From Chryseobacterium sp. StRB126 (GTDB taxonomy: Bacteria; Bacteroidota; Bacteroidia; Flavobacteriales; Weeksellaceae): a DNA stretch of 64,000 nucleotides. The stretch spans positions 5,270,001-5,334,000 of the forward strand of contig NZ_AP014624.1 in the NCBI RefSeq assembly GCF_000829375.1. The letters run 5' to 3'. This document shows positions 18,571-49,401 of this stretch, in pieces (within the stretch, counting starts at the first letter, position 1; the number at the start of each line of letters is the position of its first letter). The position numbers and the translations under genes are program-made. The notes under the pieces were generated by a model. The model had not been told where the DNA came from, made no database searches, and saw only the letters and a list, made by a program, of their open reading frames with translations.

Positions 18571-21500
18571 ATGCATCGCTTTTTTATATTTTTATATTAT
18601 CTGATTTCCAGAAACAAAATTCTTTCTGTTTTTACAGCGTTAGGAATTGCTCTCTTATGCCTTTTCTTTGCTTCTAAGATTAACTTTGAGGAAGACATTA
18701 ACCAGATTATCCCTAAAAATGAAAAATCAGATCTTACTGCAAAAGTTCTTAAACAGCTTAATTTTTCGGATAAGATTATTGTTATCATAGAAAACAAGTC
18801 CCATGAAGACAGCTTCCAGCTTTCTGAAACCGCAGATACTTTTTTACAAAAAACAGAGCCTTTACAAAAGTATATTGGTTCTATTCAAGGGAAAGTAAAT
18901 GATAATGAAATCTCTGAAACCTTTGATTTTGTGAATCAAAACCTGCCATTATTCCTCAATGAAAATGATTATAAAGAGATTGAAAGGAAACTTCAAAAAG
19001 ACAGCATTGCTAAACAGGTAGAGGACAATTATATATCATTGGTTTCCCCTACCAGCCTTGTCACTAAGGAATTTATTAAAAAAGATCCACTTGGATTAAC
19101 CTTTTTAGGAATCAAAAAATTAAACGCCCTCAACATCAGTAAGGATTTCAAACTGGAAGACAGCTATATTGTAACCAAAGATGGCAAAAATCTTCTGCTC
19201 TTCATTGAACCTAAAAATAAAAGTAATGATACAAAGGCCAATGAGGCTTTTGTGGACCAGCTCAATACCATAAAAGACAATCTCAATAAACAGTTCAAGG
19301 GAAAAACTGAGATCAGTTATTTTGGCTCTCCTATGATTGCGGTGGCAAATGCCAAACAGATTAAAAAAGATATTCAGAATACGGTTGTAATTTCCATGAC
19401 CGTACTTTTGGTCTTGCTGATTTATTATTTCAGGAACTTCTTTACCCCAATCATTGTCTTCCTTCCTACAGTCTTCTCTGTTTTACTGGCGTTGTTGGTG
19501 TTATACTTTATTAAGGATAAAATCTCGGCCATTTCATTGAGTGTAGGAGCCATTCTCATAGGAATTACCATAGATTATGCCCTGCATATTCTTACCCATT
19601 ACAAGCACAATAATAATATTGAGGAACTTTATAAAGAAATCACCCAGCCTATTATTTTGAGCAGTGCTACGACTGCGGTTTCCTTTTTATGTCTGGTATT
19701 TGTAAGATCTGAAGCGTTAAAGGATCTGGGACTTTTTGCTGCCATCACGGTTATTCTATCTTCCATTAGCGCGTTGATTATTGTTCCGCAGCTTTATAAG
19801 CCTAAACAGGCTAAAGAGAAACTGAATACCAACTTCATTGATAAAATCGGATCATATCCGTATGAAAAAAACAAACCTTTGATTATTGGATGTTCCATCA
19901 TTATTCTAGCATGTTTGTTTGGATTCAGGCATGTAGGCTTTAATGAAGATATTGGGGATCTGAATTACATTCCGAAAGAAATGAAAATCAGTGAGGCTAA
20001 ACTTCAGAAACTATCGGATATTACTTCAAAATCCATTTATACGATTTCTTATGGAAACTCTGAAGAGCAGGCGTTGGCAAGAAACTCTCAATTAAGCACC
20101 TTCCTGGAACAAGAGAAAAAAGAGGGTAAAATCCTAAGCTATAACTCGATCGGAAGCATTGTTCTGTCTGAAAAAGATCAGCAAAAGAAAATTGAGGAAT
20201 GGAAAAAATTCTGGAATGATCATAAAAAGAATCAAACAGTTTCTGAGCTCATCAGCAATGGAAACAAATTTGGGTTCAACAGTTCAGCTTTTGACAATTT
20301 CAATGAGGTTTTAAATAAAAACTACGCTACATTAGATATCAAGGACTATGAAAAGGTGAAAGCACTCCAGATTTCAGAGTTCATGAGCAATGAAAATAAT
20401 TTTTATACGGTTTCCAATGTAGTAAAGGTTGATGAGAAAAAAAGGGATGCTTTCATTAAGGATATTGAAAAGAAACATAATGCCATTGCGATTGACCGTC
20501 AGCAGATGAATGAGAACTTTTTAGGTCTATTAAAAAGAGATTTCAATACGTTGATTAATTATTCTCTTCTGGCTATTATTTTAACGATCATTGTCTTCTT
20601 CAGGAACTTCGAACTTACTATTCTTACCATGTTTCCTATTGTTCTTACAGGAGTGGTAACCGCCGGAATTTTATATTTCTTAGGGCTGGAATTAAATATT
20701 TTCAGTACAGTAGTTTGTACACTAGTCTTTGGAGTAGGAGATGATTTCAGTATTTTCCTTACACAGGCCATGCAAAAAGAGCATACCACAGGGAAAAATG
20801 AGCTTCCGACTTACAGAACATCAATTATCTTAGCCGTATTTACAACCATTTTATCTATCGGATCTTTAATTTTCGCTCAACATCCGGCTTTACATTCATT
20901 GGCTTTGGTTGCCCTGATCGGAATGTTCTCTGTAATTATCATTACTTCTACTCTATACCCGTTCTGGTTTAGATTATTGATTACCAACAGAGCAAAAAAA
21001 GGACTTTCACCTATTACATTCAGATTATTGATAGTCTCAGTAATCAGCTTTTTATATTATGGACTTGGTGGAATGATATTTTCCGCCATAGGAAGCTTCT
21101 TTGTGAAAAATTCAAAGGGGAAAACACTGAATATTATCAAACTTATTTTGGCCAAGTTTTTAACTTCTGTTCTCTATTCGAATCCATTTGTAAAGAAAAA
21201 GGTCATTCCAAATCCAAATGAAGACTTTAGTAAACCGGCAGTAATTATTGCCAATCATACTTCTTTTCTGGATACTCTGGCTATTGCCATGGCAACCCAT
21301 AAAATCATTTATTTAGTGAATGACTGGGTATACAAGTCTCCGGTTTTCGGAAAGCTGGTAAGAGCATTAGGCTTTTATCCGGTTTCTCAAGGTATTGAAA
21401 ACGGAATGGATCAATTGAAGGAAAAAATTGCACAGGGATATTCTCTTGTTGTTTTTCCGGAGGCAGAACGTTCTTATTCCAATGATGTAAAAAGATTCCA

Positions 21501-22224
21501 TAAAGGAGCATTCTATCTTGCAGAACAATTCGGATTAGATGTTCTTCCTTTATACATTCATGGAAATTCGGAGGTATTACCAAAAGGGGATTTTATTATC
21601 TATGACGGAAGCATCACAGTAAAAGTAGGTGACAGAATCAGTAAAGAGGATCTGAACTTTGGTGAAAATTATTCTGAAAGAACAAAAAAGATCAATGCTT
21701 ACTACAGAAAGGAGTTTGCTAAGCTGAGGGAAGAAATTGAAGATGAAAATTATTTTAAAAAGCAGTTATTCCTAAGCTATTTATATAAGGATAATGAAGT
21801 AGTGACAGCAGTAAAGAAAGACTTCAATGCCAATAAATCGGTTTACTTTGAGCTGAATAAACATATTGCTGGGGATGCCAACATTCTGCATATTGCTGAT
21901 GATTTTGGACAAAAAGATACTTTACTTACCCTTTATCAGGCCAGCAGAAGAATTTTTTCTTGGATTAGAAATGAGAATAAAAGAGCAACAGCCGCCCATA
22001 ATTATCTGGTAAAAAGGAGAAAAATAAACTATATAAAAGATTTGTCTGAAGTGAATAAGAAGATTGATGTTCTTCTGGTTTCTGATGACAGTTTTAATAT
22101 CAAGGATATTGAGATTTTTCCTGAGACCATCATCTTCATCAATACCACAAACAAGGTGATAGAAAGTGAAAATTATATATTAGAGTTTAGTTCTGAATCG
22201 TTAAAAGTATTTAAAACTAAATAA
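18571..22224 (+). CDS. MMPL/RND transporter fused to a PlsC-type acyltransferase (flexirubin locus)
   Basis: A 1217-residue inner-membrane protein. Residues 1 to about 800 form an MMPL-type RND transporter: a first membrane helix, a periplasmic domain and five helices (IGITIDYALHILTHY), then a second such half (FGVGDDFSIFLTQA). A PlsC-like acyltransferase follows, with NHTSFLD near residue 895 (the HX4D motif) and FPEAERS near 962 in place of the usual FPEGTRS. The last 150 residues are of unknown fold. MMPL proteins of this kind occur in aryl-polyene and flexirubin loci and are thought to move lipid-like pigment across the membrane. Fusion to an acyltransferase suggests coupling of acyl transfer to export. 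It is first in the operon and 42 bp before darA. Confidence 0.85.
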   Translation: MHRFFIFLYYLISRNKILSVFTALGIALLCLFFASKINFEEDINQIIPKNEKSDLTAKVLKQLNFSDKIIVIIENKSHEDSFQLSETADTFLQKTEPLQKYIGSIQGKVNDNEISETFDFVNQNLPLFLNENDYKEIERKLQKDSIAKQVEDNYISLVSPTSLVTKEFIKKDPLGLTFLGIKKLNALNISKDFKLEDSYIVTKDGKNLLLFIEPKNKSNDTKANEAFVDQLNTIKDNLNKQFKGKTEISYFGSPMIAVANAKQIKKDIQNTVVISMTVLLVLLIYYFRNFFTPIIVFLPTVFSVLLALLVLYFIKDKISAISLSVGAILIGITIDYALHILTHYKHNNNIEELYKEITQPIILSSATTAVSFLCLVFVRSEALKDLGLFAAITVILSSISALIIVPQLYKPKQAKEKLNTNFIDKIGSYPYEKNKPLIIGCSIIILACLFGFRHVGFNEDIGDLNYIPKEMKISEAKLQKLSDITSKSIYTISYGNSEEQALARNSQLSTFLEQEKKEGKILSYNSIGSIVLSEKDQQKKIEEWKKFWNDHKKNQTVSELISNGNKFGFNSSAFDNFNEVLNKNYATLDIKDYEKVKALQISEFMSNENNFYTVSNVVKVDEKKRDAFIKDIEKKHNAIAIDRQQMNENFLGLLKRDFNTLINYSLLAIILTIIVFFRNFELTILTMFPIVLTGVVTAGILYFLGLELNIFSTVVCTLVFGVGDDFSIFLTQAMQKEHTTGKNELPTYRTSIILAVFTTILSIGSLIFAQHPALHSLALVALIGMFSVIIITSTLYPFWFRLLITNRAKKGLSPITFRLLIVSVISFLYYGLGGMIFSAIGSFFVKNSKGKTLNIIKLILAKFLTSVLYSNPFVKKKVIPNPNEDFSKPAVIIANHTSFLDTLAIAMATHKIIYLVNDWVYKSPVFGKLVRALGFYPVSQGIENGMDQLKEKIAQGYSLVVFPEAERSYSNDVKRFHKGAFYLAEQFGLDVLPLYIHGNSEVLPKGDFIIYDGSITVKVGDRISKEDLNFGENYSERTKKINAYYRKEFAKLREEIEDENYFKKQLFLSYLYKDNEVVTAVKKDFNANKSVYFELNKHIAGDANILHIADDFGQKDTLLTLYQASRRIFSWIRNENKRATAAHNYLVKRRKINYIKDLSEVNKKIDVLLVSDDSFNIKDIEIFPETIIFINTTNKVIESENYILEFSSESLKVFKTK

Positions 22225-22266: not shown

Positions 22267-23181
22267 ATGAAAAAAAATATACTTGTCATATATTATTCTC
22301 AAACCGGCCAGCTGGAGGATATTGTGAGAAATATTGCCAAGCCTTTTGAAGCTCAAAAGGAAGAATATGATATTACCTATTATAATATTAAGCTAAAGGA
22401 AGACTTTCCTTTTCCCTGGCCAAGTGATGTTTTTTTCAACACCTTTCCGGAATCTTATTTACAAATACCTAAGGAAATTGTACCGCCTTCAGAAGAAATA
22501 CTGAACAAAAAGTACGACCTCATCCTGTTCGGATATCAGGTATGGTACCTCACACCCTCTATCCCGATTATTTCATTTTTGAAAAGTGGCTATGCAGAAC
22601 GTATCCTGAAAGATACTCCTGTAGTTACCATTTCCGGAACCCGAAATATGTGGATGCTTTCCCAGGAAAAACTGAAAATATACTTAAGAGATTTAAAAGC
22701 CCAACTTGTGGGAAACATTGCATTAGTAGACCGGCATGACAATTATACCAGCGTGCTGACTATTCTTCGCTGGCTGACCACAGGACAAAAGGAAAAATCA
22801 GGTATGCTGCCGGCAGCGGGAGTTTCGGAGGAAGAAATTACAGGTTCTGTAAAATATGGAGAGATCATCGAAAAGCATTTTAGAAACAATGACCTGGAAA
22901 ATTTACAACCGGATCTTGTAAAAAATGGCGCTATTGAAATCCGTCCGTTTTTAGTACGTGTAGAAAAGGTAGGGAACAAGATTTTCACAGTATGGTCTCA
23001 TCTGATTATCAAGAAAAAAGAGAAACGCCCATTGCTGATAAAATTCTTTAAGGTATATTTGATGGCTGCGATATGGATCATCTCACCTGTCGTTTTGGTG
23101 TTACACCTGCTTACAACCCCTATATTTTGGTTTAAAAGACAAAAACAAAAAAGATATTTACAAGGAATTAATTTAAAATAG
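22267..23181 (+). CDS. darA: Dialkylresorcinol condensing enzyme DarA
   Basis: A 304-residue protein that opens KKNILVIYYSQTGQ, a flavodoxin-like phosphate-binding loop. It ends in two hydrophobic segments with basic residues, so it is probably membrane-attached. DarA works with DarB to condense two beta-ketoacyl precursors and form the 2,5-dialkylresorcinol half of flexirubin. I assign it by recognition of the DarA sequence pattern and by adjacency: darB begins one base after its stop codon. DarA enzymes are described in Flavobacterium, Chitinophaga and Pseudomonas resorcinol pathways. The exact role of the flavodoxin-like part cannot be read from the sequence. Confidence 0.85.
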   Translation: MKKNILVIYYSQTGQLEDIVRNIAKPFEAQKEEYDITYYNIKLKEDFPFPWPSDVFFNTFPESYLQIPKEIVPPSEEILNKKYDLILFGYQVWYLTPSIPIISFLKSGYAERILKDTPVVTISGTRNMWMLSQEKLKIYLRDLKAQLVGNIALVDRHDNYTSVLTILRWLTTGQKEKSGMLPAAGVSEEEITGSVKYGEIIEKHFRNNDLENLQPDLVKNGAIEIRPFLVRVEKVGNKIFTVWSHLIIKKKEKRPLLIKFFKVYLMAAIWIISPVVLVLHLLTTPIFWFKRQKQKRYLQGINLK

Positions 23182-23182
23182 A

Positions 23183-24322
23183 ATGTACGACGTATTTATA
23201 ACAAAAGCTTCAAAATTTTTACCCAATGAACCGGTATCAAATGAGGAAATGGAAACATATCTGGGGCTTATCAATGACGCACCTTCTAAAGCCAGATCAC
23301 TTATTTTAAGAAATAATAAAATCACTACAAGATATTACGCTTTAGATAAAGAAGGAAACCCTACGCATACCAATGCACAGCTAACGGCAAAGGCAATTGA
23401 AGGACTTTTTGATGAAAATTTCAAAAAGGAAGATATGAAGTTATTATCCGTAGGAACTACTTCTCCGGATCAGATTCAGCCTTCACATGCCTCTATGGTT
23501 CACGGTGAACTGAACATTGGGAAATCTATTGAAATCAATACAGCAACCGGACTTTGCAACTCAGGGATGAATGCCCTTAACTACGGATTCCTTTCTGTAA
23601 GAGCCGGTGTACAGGAAAGTGCTGTATGTGCTGGTTCCGAAAGAATGTCTGCATGGATGACTGCTGATAAATTCAACCATGAAGCTGAAAATTTAAAATT
23701 ATTAGAAGAAAGACCTATTATTGCTTTCAAAAGAGAATTTCTTAGATGGATGCTTTCTGACGGAGCAGGTGCTTTCCTATTAGAAAATAAACCTAGAGAA
23801 AACGAAATTTCTTTAAGAGTGGAATTCATTGATTTCTATTCCTACGCTCACGAGATCGAAGCATGTATGTATGCGGGATGTGAGAAGCAGGAAGACGGAA
23901 GCTTAAAATCATGGGCAGATTATCCATCTGATTCCTGGTTGAAGGATTCTATTTTTGCTATTAAACAAGACACTAAAATCCTTGATAAATATATTCTGGT
24001 AAAAGGTGCAGAAAGCTTAAGAGCTTCTTTTGATAAACATCATCTAGATACTGAAAAAATTGACCACGTGCTGGCTCACATCTCTTCAGGATATTTCAAA
24101 GATGGATTGAAAGAAGAATTCGCTAAAAAAGGAATGGATTTCCCAGCAGAAAAATGGTTCTATAATCTTTCTGACATAGGAAACATCGGGGCCGGATCTA
24201 TCTTCGTAGCATTAGAGGAACTGATGAACTCCGGAACATTGAAAAAAGGAGAGAAAGTACTTCTTTGCGTTCCTGAAAGTGGAAGATTTGCCTATTCTTG
24301 CTCATTATTAACAGTCTGCTAA
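23183..24322 (+). CDS. darB: Beta-ketoacyl-ACP synthase III-like DarB
   Basis: A 379-residue thiolase-fold enzyme of the FabH/KASIII type. The catalytic triad is visible: Cys125 in ATGLCNSGMN, His299 in LAHISSGY and Asn334 in DIGNIGAGS. With DarA it makes the dialkylresorcinol moiety of flexirubin by joining two acyl chains. It overlaps the next gene by one base (TAATG), showing translational coupling within the operon. Length and motifs are complete. Confidence 0.9.
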   Translation: MYDVFITKASKFLPNEPVSNEEMETYLGLINDAPSKARSLILRNNKITTRYYALDKEGNPTHTNAQLTAKAIEGLFDENFKKEDMKLLSVGTTSPDQIQPSHASMVHGELNIGKSIEINTATGLCNSGMNALNYGFLSVRAGVQESAVCAGSERMSAWMTADKFNHEAENLKLLEERPIIAFKREFLRWMLSDGAGAFLLENKPRENEISLRVEFIDFYSYAHEIEACMYAGCEKQEDGSLKSWADYPSDSWLKDSIFAIKQDTKILDKYILVKGAESLRASFDKHHLDTEKIDHVLAHISSGYFKDGLKEEFAKKGMDFPAEKWFYNLSDIGNIGAGSIFVALEELMNSGTLKKGEKVLLCVPESGRFAYSCSLLTVC

Positions 24323-25771: not shown

Positions 25772-28684
25772 TTAGTATCCGAAGATCTCTTCAAGAGACA
25801 CTTCCTGGAAGGTTCCCATCTTGTTGATAGAATCCATATTCAGGTTTTCTTTCTTACCGATAATCGCGGTATTGTATTGGACAGGTTTCACCTCTGTATT
25901 GTAGAATCCTGTCAGCTGTGGCAATGTCAACCCTTGGATCTCAGCATAAGTATCTTTTCTCAGATCATAATCAACCCCTAATTTTTTCAGCGCTAACTGG
26001 CTGAAGAAAATATTGGTTCTGTTAATTCTGTTAGACGCGATCTGCTTTAATGCTGAACCTCTTGCGTTTTCAAACTGTGTCGGAATCTGTGGCAACTCCG
26101 CCATTAGTTCACTCATTGCATTTACAGCCAAAGGAAGCTTGTTAGCCTGCGTTCCGATATAATTCGTGATGTAGTTAGCATGCCCTTTTTCTGAAGCATT
26201 TGCATAAGAAACATACGCAGAATATGCTAAAGACTTACTTTCTCTGATCTCCTGGAAAACGATAGAAGACAACCCTCTTCCGAAATATTCATTGAAAACA
26301 TTAGACTTTCCGAAGTTGCTTAGGTTTACAGAACTACCTTTTGCTACTTTAGCCATTTCCATCTGTACCATGTCATAATTTGTGAAATATACCTTTCCAG
26401 TTGTTGCAGGCTCTGCATATTCCTTAGCTTTTGCCGGCTGCAGACTTACGTTTACAATATAAGGCTGTACCGCTTTCTCCATTCCTGCTTTGTCCTGTCC
26501 GTAAAGAAGGACTTCGTAAGGATACTGATTCAGTGTTTTGATCTTTTTCACTAGTTCTACAGCATCAATACTTTCAAGACGGGCTTTAGAAATCACATCC
26601 GTCATTCTTGAGTCTTTCCCATATTTTGCATAGTTGGAAAGAGCGCCCATAATTCTCACTTTATCTTTTTTAGCAACTTCTCTGGCTTCAAGAATTGTTT
26701 TTACCGTTTGGCTGTAAATTGCTTTATCCGCTTTTACGTTGGTCATCCAGTGATTCATCAACTCCACTCCTTTCTTCATATTGCTTTCAAGCCCGGATAA
26801 AGTAACCGTAGTTTGGTCATTGGAAGTTCTGAAGCTATAAGAAATCCCTAGCTTATAAAACTCTTCCTTCAACTGTTCCGGAGTATATTTATCTGTCCCA
26901 AGATATTCGAAAAGAGTACCTGCTAACGAAAGTTCCTTATCATGATCTGTTCCAAAAGGGAAAACATAACTTACCTGAGCAATTTCATTGTATTTATTTT
27001 TCACAAAACTTACCGTCTTGTCTTTCACCTTTGAAGTCTGAATAGCCGTCTTATAATCGATAAACTCTGGTTTAATTTCAGCAACCTTAGTATTTAAAAT
27101 ATCTTTAAGGAAAGGTGATTGAGCGTCTCTGTTCAGTTTAATAGGAGTAATTCCCGGGTTTTCTACACGAACAAGTTTATCATTCACTCCTTTTTCTTTG
27201 TACACTACCACATAGTTATCCTTAAAGAAATCATTCGCAAACTTTACTACATCAGCCTTAGTGATCTTTTCATACTGGTTGATCTCATCCAGCTCCTGTT
27301 CCCAGGTTCTTCCTTTGATATAAGAATCATAAAGTTCTGTAGCCAAACCATCAGCAGTTTCCAGCCCTTTCATGCGCTGAACCTTTTTATCATTTACAAT
27401 AGCTTTCAGCATCCAATCCGGAAACTGTCCTTTTTTAACAAGGTCAAGCTGATCCAATAATAATTTCTTAGCCTCATCAAAGCTTTGTCCCTCTTTAGGA
27501 GTTACCACTAATGCAAACGTTCCGTACATTTTGAATGGAGATTCGTAGGCACCCGCTCCTAATGTTTTTTGCTTTTGATTGATATTAAGATCAATTAAAC
27601 CGGCATCACCTCTGTTGCTCAATATTTCAGCCACCACATCTGCCAATCTCGCTTCCTGACTTCCGTAGGAATCTGTTCTCCATGCCATCGTCATTCTTTG
27701 AGTAGATGGGCTTTTTACAGTTCTGGAAACAATTTGAGTCATTGGTTCTTCTGTCACCATCTTTTTCATCGGAAGCTCCTTGTATTTGAAAGCTCCGAAA
27801 TATTGGTCAACTAATTTTATAGTTTTATCGAAATCAAGATCTCCAACCAATACTACCGCCATGTTATTAGGTACATAATACGTATCAAAATACTTATGAA
27901 TCGCTACCATTGAAGGACTCTTCAGATGTTCAGAAGTTCCGATAGTAGTTTGCTGTCCGTTCGGATGTTTTGGAAAAAGTGCTTCCATCAAAGCATAGTT
28001 TACCAAACGTCCGTCATTATCCTGTGCTCTGTTATACTCTTCATATACGGCTTCCAATTCAGTATGGAAAAGGCGAAGTACCAGTTCCGAAAAACGTTCT
28101 TTCTCAACCCTTAGCCATTTTTCAAGTTCATTAGAGGGAATATTGTTTTTGTAAACTGTTTCATCCAGCCAGGTGTGAGCATTAGTTCCCGTAGCTCCTA
28201 ACGAAGAAATAGCTTTATCATATTCATTCGCAATCGCAAATTTTGAAGCCTCCTGAGATACCTCATCAATCTTTTTGTAAAGTTCCTTTTTCTTTGCTGG
28301 ATCTTTTTCTGCCTTATGCTGCTCATAAAGATCAGAAATCTGCTGTAGCAAAGCTTTTTCCTTTGCCCAATCCTGAGTTCCCAACTTTGAAGTTCCTTTG
28401 AAAACCATATGCTCTAAGTAGTGAGCCAATCCTGTATTATCACTAGGATCATTGTTTGATCCTGTTCTTACCGGAATATAAGTCTGGATTCTTGGAGCAT
28501 CTTCATTTTTAGCCAAATAAACTTTTAATCCATTTTTTAGGGTATAGACTCTTACCCCTGCCAGGTCATTCTTTACCGTTTCATACGTGTAGCCCTGGGC
28601 ATCTGTCAGTTTTTGAGTATCGAATTTCTGAGCCATAGCACTAAGCATACAGAAAAGCGAAACAGAAATAAAAAGTTTCTTCAT
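25772..28684 (-). CDS. M16 family (insulinase-like) zinc metallopeptidase, exported
   Basis: A protein of about 970 residues with two M16 halves. The start is the ATG at 28684, which gives the signal peptide MKKLFISVSLFCMLSAMAQ. The inverted zinc motif is HYLEH (residues 88-92), with the downstream glutamate in ELEAVYEEYNR; the second half lacks the motif, as is usual for two-part M16 proteins. Such peptidases degrade short peptides in the periplasm. The gene interrupts the flexirubin locus in the opposite direction, and nothing in it points to pigment synthesis. Confidence 0.9.
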   Translation of the reverse strand: MKKLFISVSLFCMLSAMAQKFDTQKLTDAQGYTYETVKNDLAGVRVYTLKNGLKVYLAKNEDAPRIQTYIPVRTGSNNDPSDNTGLAHYLEHMVFKGTSKLGTQDWAKEKALLQQISDLYEQHKAEKDPAKKKELYKKIDEVSQEASKFAIANEYDKAISSLGATGTNAHTWLDETVYKNNIPSNELEKWLRVEKERFSELVLRLFHTELEAVYEEYNRAQDNDGRLVNYALMEALFPKHPNGQQTTIGTSEHLKSPSMVAIHKYFDTYYVPNNMAVVLVGDLDFDKTIKLVDQYFGAFKYKELPMKKMVTEEPMTQIVSRTVKSPSTQRMTMAWRTDSYGSQEARLADVVAEILSNRGDAGLIDLNINQKQKTLGAGAYESPFKMYGTFALVVTPKEGQSFDEAKKLLLDQLDLVKKGQFPDWMLKAIVNDKKVQRMKGLETADGLATELYDSYIKGRTWEQELDEINQYEKITKADVVKFANDFFKDNYVVVYKEKGVNDKLVRVENPGITPIKLNRDAQSPFLKDILNTKVAEIKPEFIDYKTAIQTSKVKDKTVSFVKNKYNEIAQVSYVFPFGTDHDKELSLAGTLFEYLGTDKYTPEQLKEEFYKLGISYSFRTSNDQTTVTLSGLESNMKKGVELMNHWMTNVKADKAIYSQTVKTILEAREVAKKDKVRIMGALSNYAKYGKDSRMTDVISKARLESIDAVELVKKIKTLNQYPYEVLLYGQDKAGMEKAVQPYIVNVSLQPAKAKEYAEPATTGKVYFTNYDMVQMEMAKVAKGSSVNLSNFGKSNVFNEYFGRGLSSIVFQEIRESKSLAYSAYVSYANASEKGHANYITNYIGTQANKLPLAVNAMSELMAELPQIPTQFENARGSALKQIASNRINRTNIFFSQLALKKLGVDYDLRKDTYAEIQGLTLPQLTGFYNTEVKPVQYNTAIIGKKENLNMDSINKMGTFQEVSLEEIFGY

Positions 28685-29107
28685 AGTGGTTATTTTAATA
28701 ATTTTTATATTCAAATTTCTAATCCATTAGTCTTATAATTGGAGACACTTGTTACAGTTTACCTATCATAAGTAGTAACAGTTGGTCTTAAGATTTCATT
28801 ATCCTCCAATAGTTAAATATCTCTGAGGTAAAAACTGAAGAATAGAAAGATATTACTTAATAGTATAAACCACAACAGAGGCCCCAATATCAAATCACAA
28901 ATGAAACCGGAGAAAAACAACCATTGTCTTTATCATTAAATTTTGAACAGAAAATCTGGTACAGCCTTTATTTCAACGTAATTCTATCATAAAAGCAAGT
29001 ACAATTTTCATATTATGTATTTTCACTATTTTAGCCACCTGATTAAAATAATCAAAAACAGGTGAGTCTTATTTCATCTGGAACCTAAAAAATTAAACAT
29101 TAGTCAG
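28685..29107. other. 423-bp divergent intergenic region
   Basis: Separates the M16 gene from the second flexirubin operon and must hold promoters for both. I see no full TTG-19-TAnnTTTG pair. An inverted repeat CACCTG (29037-29042) and CAGGTG (29059-29064) flanks an AT-rich loop about 45 bp before the ATG at 29108 and could be an operator. The stretch AATCAAAAACAGGTGA also occurs near 10.57 kb upstream of giant gene 1. Confidence 0.35.
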
Positions 29108-29512
29108 ATGAAAAAACAAGACCTACCTCAAGACGAAAGTAATCTGAAATCCGCCAACATGACAGAAATTCTGTATGTAACGGATGAAAATGATAATTAT
29201 ACAACAGCAAACAGTACAGGCTGGGATGTAAAAAAGGCTGCTTTAGACGAATCTATGGAATTGATCTATGAGAGAATTGAAGAAGCAAAACAAAATGTTG
29301 CCAATAATATCGTGAGCCCCATCGTTTATTTTATGGAGTTCAATAAAATGGATCTTGGAGTACTCGCCTCTTATGTAGGAATGTGGCAATGGAGGGTAAA
29401 AAGACATTTTAAACCCAGAGTATTTAAAACACTGAGTGAAGTGGTACTGAAAAAATATGCCGATGCATTTGGAATTTCAGTCAATGAACTAAAAAACTTC
29501 GACGGGAAATAA
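29108..29512 (+). CDS. Small HTH-like protein, first gene of the second flexirubin operon
   Basis: A 134-residue soluble protein with no signal peptide. Its C-terminal 60 residues (LGVLASYVGMWQWRVKRHF ... KKYADAFGISVNELKNF) look like an XRE/Cro-type helix-turn-helix: a short helix, a turn, a basic recognition-like helix and the usual closing phrase ISVNELK. The N-terminal half is acidic and unlike known sensors. Position before the BtrH-like and ABC genes suggests a regulator or a cluster-specific accessory protein. The function is not known to me. Confidence 0.6.
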   Translation: MKKQDLPQDESNLKSANMTEILYVTDENDNYTTANSTGWDVKKAALDESMELIYERIEEAKQNVANNIVSPIVYFMEFNKMDLGVLASYVGMWQWRVKRHFKPRVFKTLSEVVLKKYADAFGISVNELKNFDGK

Positions 29513-29563: not shown

Positions 29564-30559
29564 ATGAAATTAAACTTTGAACACCATCAGACTGCGCATT
29601 GCGAAAACGGTGTTGCTTCTAATCTACTGCTTAACAGAGGACTGAAACTAAGTGAACCTATGATCTTTGGAATCGGTTCAGGATTATTTTTTGTCTATCT
29701 TCCCTTTTTAAAGGTGAATTTTGCTCCGGGCTTCAGCTATCGTCCGATGCCGGGTGCTATTTTCAGTAAGGCAGCTAAAAGATTAGGAATTAAAATCAAA
29801 AGAGAAAAATTCTCAAATCCTCTGGATGCTCAAAAAGCACTGGAAAGAAACTTAGAACAAAATATCCCTACAGGACTTCAGGTAGGTGTTTTTAACCTTA
29901 CTTATTTTCCTGAAGAATATAAATTCCATTTCAACGCCCACAATCTTGTTGTGTATGGTAAAGAAGACGGAAAATTTCTTATCAGTGATCCCGTAATGGA
30001 CTACACCACTTCCCTTACAGAAGCAGAACTTGAAAAAGTACGATACGCCAAGGGAGCACTTCCTCCAAAAGGACATATGTATTATCCTATTTACATCCCT
30101 GAAAATGTTCATCTGGAAGAAGCTATTAAAAAAGGAATCAAAGATACCTGCAAAAACATGTTGGCTCCGGTACCACTTATCGGGGTAAAAGCCATGAGAT
30201 GGGTGGCTAAAAGCATTCCTAAATGGGCAGAAAAGAAAGGAACAAAAGTAACCAACCATTATCTGGGACAGTTGATAAGAATGCAGGAGGAAATTGGAAC
30301 AGGAGGCGGAGGTTTCAGATTTATTTATGGAGCTTTTCTTCAGGAAGCTGCAGTTATCCTTAAAAATGATGAATTAAAAGAACTTTCAAAGGAAATTACA
30401 TCTATTGGTGACCTTTGGAGAGATTTTGCAGTAGATATTGCCAGAGTTTACAAAAACAGAAATGCTAAGAGCGATATCTACAACGAATTATCAAAAACAA
30501 TGCTTCATATTGCAGATTTAGAAGAAGCTTTCTATAAAAAACTGAGAAAAGCAATCTGA
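29564..30559 (+). CDS. BtrH N-terminal-domain protein, putative acyltransferase
   Basis: A 331-residue protein resembling BtrH, the butirosin enzyme that moves an acyl group from an ACP to an amine. The cysteine-peptidase-like beginning is visible: HCENGVASNLL with Cys13, then GIGSGLFFVY. HNLVVYGKEDGKFLISDP supplies a histidine and an aspartate for a papain-like triad. The second half is helical. In this locus an acyl-ACP to hydroxyl transfer is needed to join the aryl-polyene acid to the dialkylresorcinol; this protein is a good candidate (inference). It precedes the ABC exporter genes by one base. Confidence 0.75.
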   Translation: MKLNFEHHQTAHCENGVASNLLLNRGLKLSEPMIFGIGSGLFFVYLPFLKVNFAPGFSYRPMPGAIFSKAAKRLGIKIKREKFSNPLDAQKALERNLEQNIPTGLQVGVFNLTYFPEEYKFHFNAHNLVVYGKEDGKFLISDPVMDYTTSLTEAELEKVRYAKGALPPKGHMYYPIYIPENVHLEEAIKKGIKDTCKNMLAPVPLIGVKAMRWVAKSIPKWAEKKGTKVTNHYLGQLIRMQEEIGTGGGGFRFIYGAFLQEAAVILKNDELKELSKEITSIGDLWRDFAVDIARVYKNRNAKSDIYNELSKTMLHIADLEEAFYKKLRKAI

Positions 30560-30560
30560 T

Positions 30561-31319
30561 ATGGCAGAGAATATGATTGAGATTAAAAATCTATATAAAA
30601 AATACAAAAATTCTGACGAGTTTTCTGTGAATGATATCTCCGTGAATATCCACAAAAATGATATCTATGGAATTCTTGGACCTAACGGAGCCGGAAAAAC
30701 AACTTTGATTTCCATGCTTTCGGGGTTAATTAAACCTACTTCAGGACAATTTACAATTGACGGGCTATCTCCACAAAAAGACAATTTCAAAATCAGGCAG
30801 ATTATGGGGATTGTTCCACAGGAATATGCTCTATATCCTACCCTGACAGCTAAAGAAAATCTGATGTTCTTCGGAAGCTTATATGGATTAAAACATAAAC
30901 AGCTTACCAAAGCGATTGATGATTCCCTGGAAATTATGGGTCTTTCAAAATTTGCCAATAAGCAGGTAGGCCAATTCTCGGGCGGAATGAAGCGTCGTTG
31001 CAACCTCATCGCTGGAACCCTTCACAATCCGAAAGTTCTGTTTTTGGATGAACCTACTGTAGGAGTAGATGTACAATCCAAAAAAGTAATCATCGATTTC
31101 CTTTTAGAATTGAATAAAAGCGGAACATGCATCATCTATACTTCCCACCACCTTTCTGAGGCAGAAGAATTCTGTACCAAGATTGCGATTATCGATAAAG
31201 GAAGAATTCATGCTGTAGGAACTCCTGAAGAACTTATTTCTCAGATTTCCCATGCAGAAAACCTAGAGGATGTTTTCATTTCATTAACCGGAAAAGAATT
31301 AAGAGATGTTGTTGTATAA
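30561..31319 (+). CDS. ABC transporter ATP-binding protein
   Basis: A 252-residue nucleotide-binding subunit. Walker A is GPNGAGKTT, the signature is FSGGMKRR, Walker B is VLFLDEPTVG and the switch is TSHH. Type and neighbourhood resemble ABC-2 exporters of the DrrA/YhhG kind that move lipids or drugs. It overlaps the permease gene by 14 bp, so the two are coupled. A role in pigment or precursor export is inferred from the locus. Confidence 0.92.
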   Translation: MAENMIEIKNLYKKYKNSDEFSVNDISVNIHKNDIYGILGPNGAGKTTLISMLSGLIKPTSGQFTIDGLSPQKDNFKIRQIMGIVPQEYALYPTLTAKENLMFFGSLYGLKHKQLTKAIDDSLEIMGLSKFANKQVGQFSGGMKRRCNLIAGTLHNPKVLFLDEPTVGVDVQSKKVIIDFLLELNKSGTCIIYTSHHLSEAEEFCTKIAIIDKGRIHAVGTPEELISQISHAENLEDVFISLTGKELRDVVV

Positions 31320-32574
31320 ACTGTGGAGAAGTTTTATTAAGGAAATTCTTCTGCTGAAAAGAGATATTGGAGGAATTGTTATCATTTTTGTAATGCCGTT
31401 ACTTTTGATTGTAACCATTACTCTTATTCAGGATTCTACCTTTAAAAACCTTGAAGGTTCAAAAATCCCTATCATTTTTATTGATAATGATAAATCTGAA
31501 GTTTCTAAAAATATAAAAGGCGAACTGGAAAACAGTAAGACTTTCCAACTGCTGACCAATTTCAATGAAAAATCCGCACAGGATGCTGTATTTGCAGGAG
31601 AGTATCAAATGGCGATCGTCATTCCTCAAGACCTTACAAAAGATTTAAATTCCAATATTGATTCCAAAGTTCAGACGATTGTAAGTTCATTCGGATTGGA
31701 AGGAGATTCTGCAAAGACGAAAATAGAAACTCCAAAAGCAAAAGAGATTCATTTGTATTTTGATCCGGCAACCAATGCAGGATTCAAAAACTCTGTGATG
31801 AACTCCGTAAACAAAATGGTTTTTGAGATCGAAAACAAAAAGATCTACAAAGCATTCCAGGATCAGCTCGGAACAACGGAAAACCTTGAAGAAAATAAAA
31901 ACCTCATCAGCTTCAAGGAAATCACCCCGAAAAAAGGAGAAATGGACATTATGCCAAATTCTGTTCAGCATAACGTTCCTGCATGGACGCTTTTCGCCAT
32001 CTTTTTTATCGTAGTTCCTTTATCTATCAATCTTGTAAAAGAAAAAAGCCAGGGAACAAGTGTAAGAGCAAGAATAAGCCCTACTCCCTATTTCGTACAT
32101 ATTTTAGGAAAGACATTTACTTATCTTATTATCTGCCTTATTCAGTTTTTGCTGATGGTGGCTGTAGGAATCTATCTTTTCCCGTATATGGACCTTCCGG
32201 CATTTGATGTATCCGGAAAAATGTTTCAGCTTGTTACGGTAACCTTATTTGCAGGACTTGCAGCCATTGGGTTTGGAGTATTATTGGGAACTATTGCAGA
32301 CACACAGGAACAATCAGCACCTTTTGGAGCAACATCTGTCGTAGTCTTGGCAGCAATCGGTGGAATCTGGGTTCCGGTATTTTTAATGCCTGAATTTATG
32401 CAGACTGTAGCCAAGTTCTCTCCTATGAACTGGGGACTAAACGCTTATTATGATATTATTTTAAGAAACAGCGGAATCGGAGGCATTGCCAAAGAACTGG
32501 TATTCCTGTTTTTATTTTACATTGCAACCGTATCCATTTCTATTTTCTACGAAAGAAAGCTTCATAATATTTAA
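31306..32574 (+). CDS. ABC-2 type transporter permease
   Basis: A 422-residue membrane subunit with one N-terminal helix, an extracytoplasmic domain of about 200 residues, and then a block of about five helices beginning WTLFAIFFIVVPLSINLVKEK and ending before YERKLHNI. This is the ABC-2 (YhhJ/DrrB-like) layout. It partners with the overlapping ATPase gene. The substrate is unknown; flexirubin or its lipid-like precursors are the local candidates. Confidence 0.88.
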   Translation: MLLYKLWRSFIKEILLLKRDIGGIVIIFVMPLLLIVTITLIQDSTFKNLEGSKIPIIFIDNDKSEVSKNIKGELENSKTFQLLTNFNEKSAQDAVFAGEYQMAIVIPQDLTKDLNSNIDSKVQTIVSSFGLEGDSAKTKIETPKAKEIHLYFDPATNAGFKNSVMNSVNKMVFEIENKKIYKAFQDQLGTTENLEENKNLISFKEITPKKGEMDIMPNSVQHNVPAWTLFAIFFIVVPLSINLVKEKSQGTSVRARISPTPYFVHILGKTFTYLIICLIQFLLMVAVGIYLFPYMDLPAFDVSGKMFQLVTVTLFAGLAAIGFGVLLGTIADTQEQSAPFGATSVVVLAAIGGIWVPVFLMPEFMQTVAKFSPMNWGLNAYYDIILRNSGIGGIAKELVFLFLFYIATVSISIFYERKLHNI

Positions 32575-34866: not shown

Positions 34867-35124
34867 ATGGAAAACTTAAAAACTGAATTGAAGCACAAAA
34901 TTATTGAAGTACTTAACCTTGAAGACGTTTCTGTAGAGGAAATTAAAGACACAGATCCATTATTTGGAGGTGGATTAGGATTAGACTCTATTGATGCCCT
35001 AGAATTAATCGTTCTTCTTGATAAAGATTATGGAATAAAATTAGCCGATCCTAAAAAAGGAAAGGAAATTTTCCAATCTATCGATACCATGGCTAAATTC
35101 ATCGAAGACAACAGAACAAAATAA
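34867..35124 (+). CDS. Acyl carrier protein (first of two)
   Basis: An 85-residue acidic ACP. The phosphopantetheine attachment site is Ser41 in GLGLDSIDALE. It should carry growing acyl or polyene chains for the ketosynthases around it. A different ACP is encoded at 47922-48176, which suggests separate carriers for the polyene and the alkyl halves (inference). Confidence 0.92.
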   Translation: MENLKTELKHKIIEVLNLEDVSVEEIKDTDPLFGGGLGLDSIDALELIVLLDKDYGIKLADPKKGKEIFQSIDTMAKFIEDNRTK

Positions 35125-43172: not shown

Positions 43173-43538
43173 TTATTTAAAGACCACATCAGCAAATGAT
43201 AGTGGTGTCATCATTATGGTAACAAATATCGAAATAATAACCAGAGCTAGCTGGGTGATATGGTATATTTTTTCTCTTTCCTCCTCATTGATTTCAAAAG
43301 TAAATTTTATTTTATCAGGTCTTCTGATAATCAACCAAATAAACACAAGAACAGCCAGATTCATCAGTACGGGAAATACAAGAAAGATCTTGCTTCCATA
43401 ATTGTCTTTCATACTTCCGTACCCATGAATAGTGATGGTGTCAGGTATTGAGCTGTAAACAGTGCACAAATACACAGAATAGCAGATGATAATAACAAAA
43501 GGAATACAGAACAGCAGTTTTATATATTTGGGGATCAT
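43173..43538 (-). CDS. Small membrane protein, DUF1648-like
   Basis: A 121-residue protein with three hydrophobic segments. After the first, SSIPDTITIHGYGSMKDNYGSK resembles the short loop of DUF1648/SdpI-type proteins (usually IPxHxxxxGxxD). The function in this setting is unknown. Its ATG overlaps the stop of the C45 gene by 4 bp and the hydrolase follows after six bases, so it is translated with them. Confidence 0.65.
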   Translation of the reverse strand: MIPKYIKLLFCIPFVIIICYSVYLCTVYSSIPDTITIHGYGSMKDNYGSKIFLVFPVLMNLAVLVFIWLIIRRPDKIKFTFEINEEEREKIYHITQLALVIISIFVTIMMTPLSFADVVFK

Positions 43539-45223
43539 TTCAGTTTCTTTAAAGTTTTCCTCAGGTATTTTTCAACATTTTTTCTGTCGGGAACTGTTGT
43601 AATTTCTTTTGTCAATGCTTTTTCAAACTCCATTTTTGCCTTTGAATATTCTTTTTTGCTAAAATAATACTTTCCTGATTGATAATAGACCAGCCAAAAA
43701 TCGGGGTTCATAGCCTGATAGGATGGGATTACATCATCTGTCAACAGCGTGTTTTTATAATCAGCAGCCTCATTAATTTCTTTCCCGTACATTTTGGACA
43801 GTTCATAGTTTTGAAATGCTTCAGAATCTGCAAATGGATCTCTTGCAATATTCAATTCTGTTTTCGCCAGCAGACTTTGTGATAACTGCTTACCGGAAAA
43901 AATCTCATTCAGGTCATAACAAACAAATTCTCCAAGCTGATAAGGATTGGAAGAAACCCAAACCAGTTTTTTCTGAGGTGAAAATATAACGGCATGGTGA
44001 GCCAATAGCTGATTGAGTGCTTTTTCATTTCCATAACCTATACTTTTATCCTTTAAGCCGGATTTATTTCTTAAAATAGAAGCCATCTTTTCGGGAGTGA
44101 TCTTCTTTTCTTTCTGCAAAAGCTCCTGAAGTTTTTCATAACGGTATTCTGAATGGCTTTCTTCAATCTGCTTCTGATTTCTTTTGTCATCCTTATAAGC
44201 TTCAGACTGGAAATGATTGGTGCAAAGAACTCTGCTGGTATTCTGTACTCTGTACACTCCGAAATTCTCAGGTGAAACTTCAATAATGACTGCATTTTTA
44301 TCTGCTGCACTTCCCACAAGAATGGATTCTGAAACAAATACCTTTCTTTTTTTAGCAATGGCAATCGCTTCTTCTATATTTTTAGCATATTGTAAAATCT
44401 CTCTTGTAACCAGGGAAATCGGAGTCTTTGCCGTTAAAGGAATTCTTGATTTTCCGGCATTAATGGTCACGGTAATTCCTTCCTTATTCATCCCCGAAAC
44501 CACACCTATCATTCCCGGCCAGCTTACAGACATATAAGGAATCCCATTTTCCGGTTCCACGAATTCAACCAGCTTATTTTGGGCAAACTCGTCTCCTACA
44601 TAGAAATCAAAATTTCTTCCGATCAACATATCACCGTCTTCTGTATTTTCATTCCAGACTGCCAGGGAAGTACAGCCTACCATTGCCAGATCCTGCATGG
44701 CATGCCCAATATCATGAGCACCATGTAAATATAAATTTCTCAGATATCTTGGGGCAATAAAATCATATTGACCTGAAGAATATTGTGACAAGCCATACAA
44801 TTCGGCCTGATAATCCTCTCTTATATTCAGATACATTTTACGGTTGTACCATTTTAGGAAGATATTTAAAAGCTTCTGTTTAAACTTCGAAGGAACAAAA
44901 TCCTCCACTTTGGAGAAGAAGATACCCTCTTGTTTCTGCATCAGATCCTGGGTTAATGCTCCGTTATTATAACCCAACTGCAAAGGATTTCCTTTAATAT
45001 AAAGTTCCCAAAGCTGTTGTTTATTTTTGGTGAGAAAATTCTGTTTATAGCTGAATGTACTGTCATTGATCTTATTAACCTTCGGAACTTCCAGAGTATA
45101 TTGTTTTACATCAGGAAGATGATGAACAGATTTAGACACTCCGCATGCGCTCAGGAGGCAGGAAAAAAAGAAATATAAGAGAAGTCTTTTATATGACAGG
45201 TTATGGATCTCAGTTTTTTTCAC
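43535..45223 (-). CDS. C45-type autoproteolytic acyltransferase/hydrolase, lipoprotein
   Basis: A 562-residue protein starting at a GTG (45223) with a lipoprotein signal (LLYFFFSCLLSACG). The penicillin acyltransferase-like Ntn-hydrolase core follows. The expected N-terminal nucleophile after self-cleavage is Cys184 in AMVGCTSLAVW, with IGRNFDF, YMSVSWPGMIGVVSGMNKEG and CTNHF further on. A TPR-like hairpin (SGKYYFSKKEYSKAKMEFEKAL) lies near the C-terminus. Family members cleave or transfer amide-linked acyl groups. In this locus it is one of several candidates for joining the two pigment halves, probably outside the inner membrane. Confidence 0.8.
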   Translation of the reverse strand: MKKTEIHNLSYKRLLLYFFFSCLLSACGVSKSVHHLPDVKQYTLEVPKVNKINDSTFSYKQNFLTKNKQQLWELYIKGNPLQLGYNNGALTQDLMQKQEGIFFSKVEDFVPSKFKQKLLNIFLKWYNRKMYLNIREDYQAELYGLSQYSSGQYDFIAPRYLRNLYLHGAHDIGHAMQDLAMVGCTSLAVWNENTEDGDMLIGRNFDFYVGDEFAQNKLVEFVEPENGIPYMSVSWPGMIGVVSGMNKEGITVTINAGKSRIPLTAKTPISLVTREILQYAKNIEEAIAIAKKRKVFVSESILVGSAADKNAVIIEVSPENFGVYRVQNTSRVLCTNHFQSEAYKDDKRNQKQIEESHSEYRYEKLQELLQKEKKITPEKMASILRNKSGLKDKSIGYGNEKALNQLLAHHAVIFSPQKKLVWVSSNPYQLGEFVCYDLNEIFSGKQLSQSLLAKTELNIARDPFADSEAFQNYELSKMYGKEINEAADYKNTLLTDDVIPSYQAMNPDFWLVYYQSGKYYFSKKEYSKAKMEFEKALTKEITTVPDRKNVEKYLRKTLKKLK

Positions 45224-46961: not shown

Positions 46962-47816
46962 TTAAACCACTGAAGCGGATATTTTTTTCACCATGGTTTC
47001 AAGATTCTGAACATAAGACTGTAAAAGTCCTTGAGAATCCCTGTTCTTGATATTCTGAGCTACCCTTGCATACAAGTGATAATGAAGATTTTTTTCTTTC
47101 ATTACGTAGACATACACAACAGGTACACCCAATCGGGATGCAATAAGAAATGGGCCAGCCGGAAATTTGGCACTTTTTCCCAACAGATCAGCTTCCAGGA
47201 ATTTTGAACCTTCAAAATAGCGGTCTCCGGTAAAGCAGATCAATTCATTATGGGACAATGCCTGATTAATCTCAAAGATATGCGACATATCTTCTTTGAC
47301 ATAAATGAATTTGATATTGCTCTTTTTTACAGAAACACTTTCCAGGTATTCCTTAATGACAGTAATTTCCTGATCTGTAGTAACCAGATTGATCTGACAG
47401 TCAAAATCAATATCTGCAAAGAAATGTTCTGCTACTTCAAAGTTACCGATATGAGCACTGATCAGAACTCCTCCTTTCTTGGCAGCCAAAAGATTTCTCA
47501 GATTTTCAATACCATCAAATTCATAGGTGTATTTTTCTCTCAAGCCGGCAGAAATAGCCGTTTTATCAATTAAAATCTGTCCGAAAGTGAAGTAGCTTTT
47601 AAAAATGGAGCGTTTGGCTTTCCAATAGCCTAGATGAAGTCTTTTCTGGAAGTAATAGAGAATGTATTGGTTGCTTTTTTTCTGAAACAGAACATAATAA
47701 GCAGCCACAAAGTATAAGACAAAATATGAACTTCTGATGCCGATATTTCTAATACACCAGACGAATATTCTGTAGCCCAGAACCGTCCCTTTAGATTTAC
47801 CTTTCCACTTGTTCAT
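46962..47816 (-). CDS. LpxL/HtrB-type lipid acyltransferase
   Basis: A 284-residue protein with an N-terminal membrane-associated region and the acyltransferase motif SAHIGNFEVAEHFF (H-x4-E), then CFTGDRYFEGSKFL and FPAGPFLIASRLGVPVVYVY. These match the lysophospholipid/lipid A acyltransferase family. Aryl-polyene loci often carry such an enzyme, thought to attach acyl or polyene chains to a lipid. It lies just downstream of an ACP gene, which could supply the donor. Confidence 0.85.
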   Translation of the reverse strand: MNKWKGKSKGTVLGYRIFVWCIRNIGIRSSYFVLYFVAAYYVLFQKKSNQYILYYFQKRLHLGYWKAKRSIFKSYFTFGQILIDKTAISAGLREKYTYEFDGIENLRNLLAAKKGGVLISAHIGNFEVAEHFFADIDFDCQINLVTTDQEITVIKEYLESVSVKKSNIKFIYVKEDMSHIFEINQALSHNELICFTGDRYFEGSKFLEADLLGKSAKFPAGPFLIASRLGVPVVYVYVMKEKNLHYHLYARVAQNIKNRDSQGLLQSYVQNLETMVKKISASVV

Positions 47817-47921: not shown

Positions 47922-48176
47922 CTATGCTTTTTTCTCAGCGATCTTTCTTTCAATCGTTGTATAGAAATCATCAAATGTCACCATTTTCTTGAAGTCTGCT
48001 TCTCCTAATTTCACTCCGAAATTGGATTCAATCACTACGACCATATCAATGTAATCTAAGCTGTCTAGTCCCAGTGTATTTTTAAGGTTAGCATCATTAC
48101 TGATTTCATCTCCGTCAACTTCAAATTCGTTAACCAGAAAATCATTAACAATAGCAACAATTTTTTCCCTTTCCAT
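47922..48176 (-). CDS. Acyl carrier protein (second of two)
   Basis: An 84-residue acidic ACP with the attachment serine at Ser39 in TLGLDSLDYIDM. The start is the ATG at 48176; an earlier in-frame TTG overlaps the upstream ketosynthase. It lies directly downstream of the FabF-like gene, so the pair is likely to work together. Sequence differs clearly from the ACP at 34867-35124. Confidence 0.92.
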   Translation of the reverse strand: MEREKIVAIVNDFLVNEFEVDGDEISNDANLKNTLGLDSLDYIDMVVVIESNFGVKLGEADFKKMVTFDDFYTTIERKIAEKKA

Positions 48177-48180
48177 GTTT

Positions 48181-49401
48181 TTAATCAAATTTTTTAACTA
48201 TTAGTGCAGAATTGGTTCCCCCGAACCCAAAAGAATTCGACAAAAATACATCAATTTTTTGATTTTTTGTTTTGGAGACTAAATTTATCTTTTGTGCTTC
48301 ACTATCAGGATTTTCCAGATTAATATTCGGAGCTACAAAATCATTCTGCATCATCAGGATTGAGTAAATAACTTCACTTGCACCAGCCATCCAGCACTCG
48401 TGTCCCGTCATAGATTTCGTAGAACTTACCGGAACTTCACTTCCAAAAATCTCGTAAATAGCTTTGGCTTCATTGGCATCACCAATTGGAGTGGAAGTAG
48501 CATGGGCGTTGATATAGTCTATATCTGAAGCTTTTAACCCTGACTGTTTCAAGGCTCTGTCCATTGCTAAAGCCGGCCCATCAACATTCGGAGTTGAAAT
48601 ATGACCTCCGTTTGATGAAAAACCATATCCTATGATTTCAGCAATAACAGGAACCCCTCTTCTTTGAGCAGATTCCAGGCTTTCAACAATTAAAGAGGCT
48701 GCTCCACCACTTGGAATTAAGCCATCTCTGTTAGCATCAAAAGGTCTTGATGCTTTTGTAGGCTCATCTTCTCTTGCTGAAAAAACGCCTAATCCGTCAA
48801 AGCTCGCCATAGAATATTTGTTGGTTTCCTGAGCACCACCACAGATGATCATATCCTGAAACCCGTTCTTAATCATCATATAAGCAAGCCCTAAGGAATG
48901 TGAACCGCTTGCGCAGGCCGCACTGATGGTAAGGTTAATTCCTTTCAGTTTAAAAATCGTAGAAAGGTTCATTGTTACAGTTGAGTTCATTGATTTAAAA
49001 ATCGCGCCCGATCCCATCAATGTAGTATCTTTCTTTTCTCTTGCAATGTCAATAGACTCTACTACTGCCTGAGAAACACTGTCATTTCCGTATAAAATCC
49101 CAACTTCATGGGTATCTAAAAAGGCTTCATCAAGATTGGCCTGTTTCAGTGCATCAAGGGTAGCAAGATAAGCATACTCACTTTCTTCTCCCATGCTTAC
49201 ACGCTGGCGTCTGTTCAAAAGGTTCTTTAAATCAGGTTTTGGAACAATTCCTGTAAGCCCTGACCTGAAACCAAATTCTTTTCTGTCCTGATCCAGGACA
49301 ATTCCGGACTTTCCTTGATATAGGGATTCCCTGACCTCTTCTAAAGACGTCCCGATGCAGGAATAAATTCCCATTCCGGTAATTACAACCCTATTTTCCA
49401 T
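48181..49401 (-). CDS. FabF-like beta-ketoacyl-ACP synthase
   Basis: A 406-residue ketosynthase with Cys163 in SAACASGSHSLG, a histidine in NAHATSTPIGD and another in MTGHECWMAGASE. The triad is complete and the sequence is closer to classical FabF than the other ketosynthases here. It probably extends the coumaroyl starter with malonyl units. It sits with FabG-like reductase, ACP and ammonia-lyase genes in one minus-strand operon. Confidence 0.9.
   Translation of the reverse strand: MENRVVITGMGIYSCIGTSLEEVRESLYQGKSGIVLDQDRKEFGFRSGLTGIVPKPDLKNLLNRRQRVSMGEESEYAYLATLDALKQANLDEAFLDTHEVGILYGNDSVSQAVVESIDIAREKKDTTLMGSGAIFKSMNSTVTMNLSTIFKLKGINLTISAACASGSHSLGLAYMMIKNGFQDMIICGGAQETNKYSMASFDGLGVFSAREDEPTKASRPFDANRDGLIPSGGAASLIVESLESAQRRGVPVIAEIIGYGFSSNGGHISTPNVDGPALAMDRALKQSGLKASDIDYINAHATSTPIGDANEAKAIYEIFGSEVPVSSTKSMTGHECWMAGASEVIYSILMMQNDFVAPNINLENPDSEAQKINLVSKTKNQKIDVFLSNSFGFGGTNSALIVKKFD

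Follow-up and report, generated by a model that had tools for sequence, protein, structure and literature searches.

DarH, a BtrH-like protein encoded in a 64,000-nucleotide stretch of the Chryseobacterium sp. StRB126 genome (the window, meaning this whole stretch at its full length), most probably acts in the cytoplasm as an acyltransferase with a papain fold and forms the ester of flexirubin, joining the polyene to the dialkylresorcinol (DAR). Flexirubins are orange pigments that have long been used as taxonomic markers. The original prediction, made from the letters of the sequence, had listed DarH among four possible ester-forming enzymes at the locus, together with a PlsC domain, an LpxL-like enzyme and a C45 protein, and domain matches verify the genes of the other three. 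From DAR co-occurrence, the distribution of the other candidates and the predicted fold, we infer that the role is best supported for DarH. It stands out because it tracks the DAR genes, while the other three candidates follow those for the polyene. The gene and the codons of its proposed active site are as follows.

29564..30559, + strand: DarH, a protein with BtrH_N and DUF4872 domains (ATG start, 331 amino acids; PF14399/PF16169, NF053550, AF2 model)
29600..29602, + strand: codon TGC for Cys13, proposed nucleophile (invariant in 36/36)
29939..29941, + strand: codon CAC for His126, proposed general base (invariant in 36/36)
29987..29989, + strand: codon GAT for Asp142, proposed third triad residue (invariant in 36/36)

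Likeness of DarH to the two Pfam families is far above chance. BtrH_N (PF14399) covers residues 12-143 (E 4.9e-49, 166.4 bits against a cut-off of 29.7), and DUF4872 (PF16169) covers residues 155-327 (E 6.9e-59). To judge from its sequence, DarH is a member of the catalogued family NF053550, an equivalog-level NCBIfam model titled “BtrH-related acyltransferase DarH”, which it matches with 503.7 bits (cut-off 300), residues 4-328 aligning to model positions 1-325. No sequence difference from this family was seen, and the acyltransferase role is stated in the name of the model. The closest listed protein, from Chryseobacterium soli, is 94% identical. In an alignment of 36 DarH sequences, 35 of which share 59-94% identity with the protein described here, the residues Cys13, His126 and Asp142 are unchanged throughout and follow the papain-like Cys-His-Asp order, thus bearing out the arrangement that had been predicted. 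A second kept block, comprised of E242 and GTGG with F251 and R252, lies in the C-terminal half.

BtrH-like genes also occur outside pigment clusters. The same genome holds a second one (L002 1501-2442; G000:C1:2787212-2788153, − strand), about 27-28% identical to DarH and located away from the pigment genes, with papain-family peptidase, GNAT and MarR-type genes as neighbours. Acinetobacter plasmids bear another and account for 45 of the 55 plasmid records with a match; in one locus (L228 1407-2378) the gene has two PaaI-type thioesterase genes and one for a TetR regulator as neighbours. In a five-sequence alignment that includes the paralogue and an Acinetobacter plasmid protein (28%), both distant relatives keep Cys13 and His126, and the Asp142 column varies.

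The genes that accompany DarH in the DAR part of the cluster, including the adjoining exporter genes noticed earlier, an ATP-binding cassette (ABC) pair directly downstream, are listed below.

22267..23181, + strand: probable DarA, so called because it adjoins DarB
23183..24322, + strand: DarB, dialkylresorcinol ketosynthase (NF053539, 632.7 bits, cut-off 550)
29108..29512, + strand: DarG, small DAR-module protein adjoining DarH (NF053545, 196.7 bits, cut-off 170)
30561..31319, + strand: ABC transporter ATPase of the DAR module (PF00005; 77/80 DarB loci, 0/7 polyene-only regions)
31306..32574, + strand: ABC-2 permease of the DAR module (PF12698; 76/80 DarB loci, 0/7 polyene-only regions)

On the NCBIfam models, whose cut-offs are exceeded by DarB, DarG, DarH, LolA2 and LolB2, the locus is a flexirubin cluster. 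No Pfam or NCBIfam match was found for the DarA candidate.

Co-occurrence was counted in 396 Bacteroidia genomes, each at least 90% complete. A first sample of 138 genomes of the phylum, in which DarB and DarH exceeded their cut-offs in the same 9 genomes, included only 34 genomes of the class or nearer, and sampling was hence widened to the 396 class-level genomes. In 67 genomes sampled from the family, no DarB was found, which made that set uninformative. In the main sample, the dar-type DarB exceeded its cut-off in 67 genomes, to which G278 was added as DarB-positive, its copy being present in two pieces on two contigs. Among the resulting 68 DarB-positive genomes, DarH exceeded its cut-off in 66, spread across 20 families, as opposed to none of the 328 others. 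DarH thus follows the DAR genes almost perfectly; Fisher values on this 2x2 count ignore relatedness. Genomes G191, G207, G334, G368, G445, G481 and G501, with DarB-like matches below the cut-off in frames of about 620 amino acids, were scored DarB-negative, and neither DarH nor LolA2 was found in them. Genomes G214, G219, G333, G345, G427 and G430, with DarH matches below the cut-off, were scored DarH-negative; DarB and LolA2 were found in none.

LolA2, used as a marker of flexirubin clusters, was detected in 72 of the 396 genomes at E up to 1e-12, 63 of them over its cut-off of 125. Polyene genes accompany DarH in all 66 genomes, as seen through LolA2 in 63 and through polyene-block genes near DarH/DarB in G099, G226 and G491. 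The polyene-only set consists of the genomes without DarB in which LolA2 reached an E value of 1e-12 or lower (G118, G267, G316, G358, G375, G447 and G532), and none of these seven has DarH. Two of them lie below the LolA2 cut-off, G267 (62.5 bits) and G447 (97.7 bits); polyene-type genes are present in the regions read of both, the set in G267 being partial and diverged, and without this genome the DarH count is 0/6. Each of the seven genomes comes from a different family, and in five of these families (f2, f36, f49, f79 and f83) DarH-positive genomes occur as well; joint presence or absence of DarB and DarH has therefore arisen several times. Genome G099 carries a reduced flexirubin-like locus (L217), in which ketosynthases, a reductase, a dehydratase and a lyase of the polyene type lie together with DarH, other dar genes and the ABC pair. 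For LolA2, C45, MMPL-PlsC and the LpxL-like protein, no match was found in this genome.

In a DarB-anchored scan of GTDB genomes 584 loci were confirmed, and the best 80 of them delimit the set of genes to which DarH belongs. DarA, DarB, DarG, DarH, and the ABC ATPase and permease were found in 80, 80, 79, 78, 77 and 76 of the 80 loci, respectively, and the DarA relative adjoins DarB in nearly all. In the two loci without DarH inside the stretch (Capnocytophaga periodontitidis and a metagenome-assembled genome interrupted by a contig end) the gene lies elsewhere in the genome. For genes with paralogues, ketosynthases and carrier proteins among them, the gene-by-gene counts include cross-hits from one paralogue to another. 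Only the six listed genes are near-universal in the DarB loci and absent from all seven polyene-only regions, where DarA, DarG and the ABC pair were sought within stretches of 13.5-20 kb and not genome-wide. The cluster therefore reads as an aryl-polyene module joined with a DAR module of six genes, the latter having DarH as its sole candidate for acyl transfer.

This co-occurrence also fits another DAR-linked role, because DarG and the ABC pair show the same distribution. DarH could serve in thioesterase or editing activity, in acylation for ABC export or in self-protection, a different enzyme making the ester. It directly adjoins the DarG and ABC genes here, and DarG in 15 of 17 DarH regions read (chosen for DarH and DarB lying apart or LolA2 missing, not at random), and papain-like folds include hydrolases. 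We consider such a role unlikely: the three other candidates for acyl transfer do not track the DAR genes, and the full-length fold matches of DarH, described below, are biosynthetic enzymes.

The three other candidates of the locus are the following.

18571..22224, + strand: MMPL exporter fused to a PlsC-type acyltransferase (PF03176 and PF01553)
43535..45223, − strand: C45 autoproteolytic acyltransferase/hydrolase (C45/AAT; NF040521, PF03417)
46962..47816, − strand: LpxL-like acyltransferase (PF03279)

Their distribution was counted over 75 genomes, comprised of the 66 DarH-positive genomes, the seven polyene-only genomes, and G241 and G304, which have DarB without DarH. The counts rest on protein matches with E limits of 1e-20 (C45), 1e-30 (PlsC) and 1e-10 (LpxL), by which a distant or paralogous match could score either way. 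All three follow the polyene genes regardless of the DAR genes, and as ester makers they are disfavoured by their presence in polyene-only genomes. If the C45/AAT protein made the ester, as an autoproteolytic N-terminal-nucleophile acyltransferase, its presence in 63 of the 66 DarH-positive genomes and the word acyltransferase in its family name would be accounted for. It is, however, also found in 5/7 polyene-only genomes and in both G241 and G304, and it is unmatched in G099, G200 and G489, all of which have DarB and DarH; this alternative is very improbable. Equally improbable is ester formation at the membrane by the PlsC domain of the MMPL exporter or by the LpxL-like protein. Both are common with the cluster (64/66 and 62/66 DarH-positive genomes, respectively, and 2/2 for G241 and G304 in each case; the LpxL match in G489 is only 29% identical), but they also accompany polyene genes alone, MMPL-PlsC in 7/7 polyene-only genomes (the PlsC part reached in 5) and the LpxL-like protein in 6/7, and neither is matched in G099. 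The polyene cluster of E. coli, as listed in PMC8253772, has no DAR genes, and deletions of ApeD (a lysophospholipid acyltransferase) and of ApeJ led there to late intermediates, which the authors read as impaired attachment to membrane lipids. As far as that account goes, these results fit another task for the PlsC and LpxL-like proteins.

The predicted structure points in the direction of DarH as the ester-making enzyme. Its AF2 model is a full-length two-part fold, with a papain-like N-terminal and a helical C-terminal half. In the fold comparison, the model matches carrier-protein-linked biosynthetic enzymes over its full length, namely CtaG, CcbD and AziU3/U2, with scores well above those of peptidase domains, and one of these enzymes was solved with a carrier domain. 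CtaG acts in thioamide antibiotic assembly, CcbD uses a sugar amine as acceptor and forms an amide, and AziU3/U2 participates in azinomycin assembly and is not a plain acyltransferase. The structural relatives are mostly amide-forming, and the product of BtrH is likewise an amide. Identity to DarH is about 11% for CtaG (Ruminiclostridium cellulolyticum; PDB 9quz, 9qvj and others), about 12% for CcbD (PDB 9dkr, 9dks, 7yn1 and 7yn2) and about 15% for AziU3/U2 (Streptomyces sahachiroi; PDB 7wuw and 8gs1), all in the same fold group. No sequence relationship to CtaG, CcbD or AziU3 was detected at E up to 10 when the A3 profile was compared with PDB sequences; solved relatives emerged from the fold comparison only. 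According to the model, DarH shares with them the fold and likely the way of working, and not membership in a sequence family. With BtrH of butirosin biosynthesis, described as an acyl carrier protein:aminoglycoside acyltransferase (PMC10318531), DarH shares the N-terminal BtrH_N domain; unlike in BtrH, the proposed donor is a polyene, the acceptor a phenol and the bond an ester.

Two carrier proteins of the polyene block could present the donor.

34867..35124, + strand: acyl carrier protein (ACP), possible donor carrier (PF00550; 6/7 polyene-only regions)
47922..48188, − strand: second ACP, possible donor carrier (PF00550; 6/7 polyene-only regions)

In the mechanism we propose, DarH would be located in the cytoplasm, and the finished aryl-polyene acid, bound to an ACP as a polyenoyl thioester, would be the donor. 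The polyenoyl group would move from the ACP to Cys13, giving an acyl-Cys13 thioester. His126 and Asp142 would complete the triad and aid the attack of one phenolic hydroxyl of the resorcinol on this intermediate. The acceptor would be the dialkylresorcinol supplied by DarA and DarB, and the aryl ester would then be released. The downstream ABC pair may subsequently move the ester or an intermediate.

Published work on the two halves of the pigment is consistent with a joining role. Schoner et al. (PMC3992019) report heterologous production of the resorcinol from just two Chitinophaga pinensis genes, darA and darB. As these two genes suffice, according to that report, the role of DarH would be in joining rather than in making the resorcinol. 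In Azoarcus, the dar cluster azo0283-0293 is reported to include a gene for a “BtrH-like peptidase”, darE (azo0290), which by the gene table sits inside the dar cluster as DarH does; polyene genes are listed in two separate clusters, azo0253-0264, about twenty genes off, and azo3910-3921, and an ester-linked polyene-resorcinol hybrid was inferred from mass spectra (PMC3949708, from the same group as Schoner et al.). The protein named DarH in this Azoarcus table is a PilT-domain protein, and dar names are consequently not transferable between the two systems. Searches over open-licence PMC papers, with subscription papers and preprints outside their scope, brought up neither a mutant nor an assay of DarH.

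Besides the distribution that DarH shares with DarG and the ABC pair, several observations, none of them biochemical, weigh against assigning it the ester bond. DarB occurs without DarH in two genomes. In G304, DarB and DarA lie on a 5.5-kb contig of a fragmented, 360-contig assembly; in G241, a lone DarB adjoins a TetR-type regulator and an IS66 transposon, with no DarA in 20 kb. Among 14 control genomes, none of which has a match to DarH, Caulobacter vibrioides and Bacteroides ihuae match the DarB model with E values no higher than 1e-60, and one of the two exceeds the cut-off. Bacteroides ihuae has LolA2 in addition and may be either a case like G241 or a true exception to the pairing of DarB with DarH. 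Formation of a phenol ester would be an extrapolation from relatives that are mostly amide-forming. Extension to Proteobacteria would rest on the Azoarcus gene list. Finally, a different protein, the “ligase-like” FlxW, was put forward for the joining step by Schoner et al. 2014 (PMC3992019), where it appears as a proposal.

Lone DarB-like ketosynthases beside TetR-type or helix-turn-helix regulators were observed in L043 (14008-15150) and L044 (19935-21071), on Bacteroides and Prevotella plasmids, and in L191 (10113-11252), the G241 locus; no DarA was seen beside any of the three. Solitary DarB-like genes carried by plasmids of Bacteroides, Phocaeicola and Prevotella, of which two loci were read, were judged not to be dar operons.

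The window lies within one contig of 5.5 Mb. The surroundings of DarH in it also include several ketosynthases, the two ACPs, a ketoreductase, an aromatic amino acid lyase, an AMP-binding protein, LolA2 and LolB2. Inside the polyene block, a tryptophan-halogenase-like flavoprotein (51939-53189, + strand; PF04820, E 7.4e-23) may chlorinate the aryl ring, since chlorinated flexirubins are mentioned in PMC3992019. A gene for an M16 peptidase on the opposite strand (25772-28714, − strand) separates the DarA/DarB side from DarG/DarH. It looks like a local insertion, because the gap between DarB and DarH is about 1.4-1.5 kb in the same-genus genomes G012 and G095 and 5.2 kb here. Elsewhere in the window, two open reading frames (ORFs) of 1546 and 1543 amino acids (5607-10247 and 11081-15712, − strand) resemble a tandem duplication; a constant offset of 5474 bases separates both their starts and the repeats of three shadow ORFs.

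In open-licence PMC papers, an enzyme joining the halves of flexirubin has so far only been proposed, as FlxW, and the four candidates of this locus are now narrowed to one with a testable active site. DarH would be the ester-making, not the amide-making, form of a known enzyme kind. Taken more broadly, and with somewhat less confidence than the ester role itself, we favour a reading in which DarH is a carrier-protein-to-phenol O-acyltransferase, representing an ester-making branch of the BtrH/CtaG/CcbD type. It would be the central component of a portable DAR module of six genes, comprised of DarA, DarB, DarG, DarH and the ABC genes. With this module, a bacterium that makes aryl polyenes would become a producer of flexirubin-type pigments, in Bacteroidota and also, going by the genes listed for Azoarcus, in Proteobacteria. 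If true, an amide-making family would be extended to aryl-ester formation, and DarH would offer a tool to attach polyenes or other carrier-bound acids to resorcinols.
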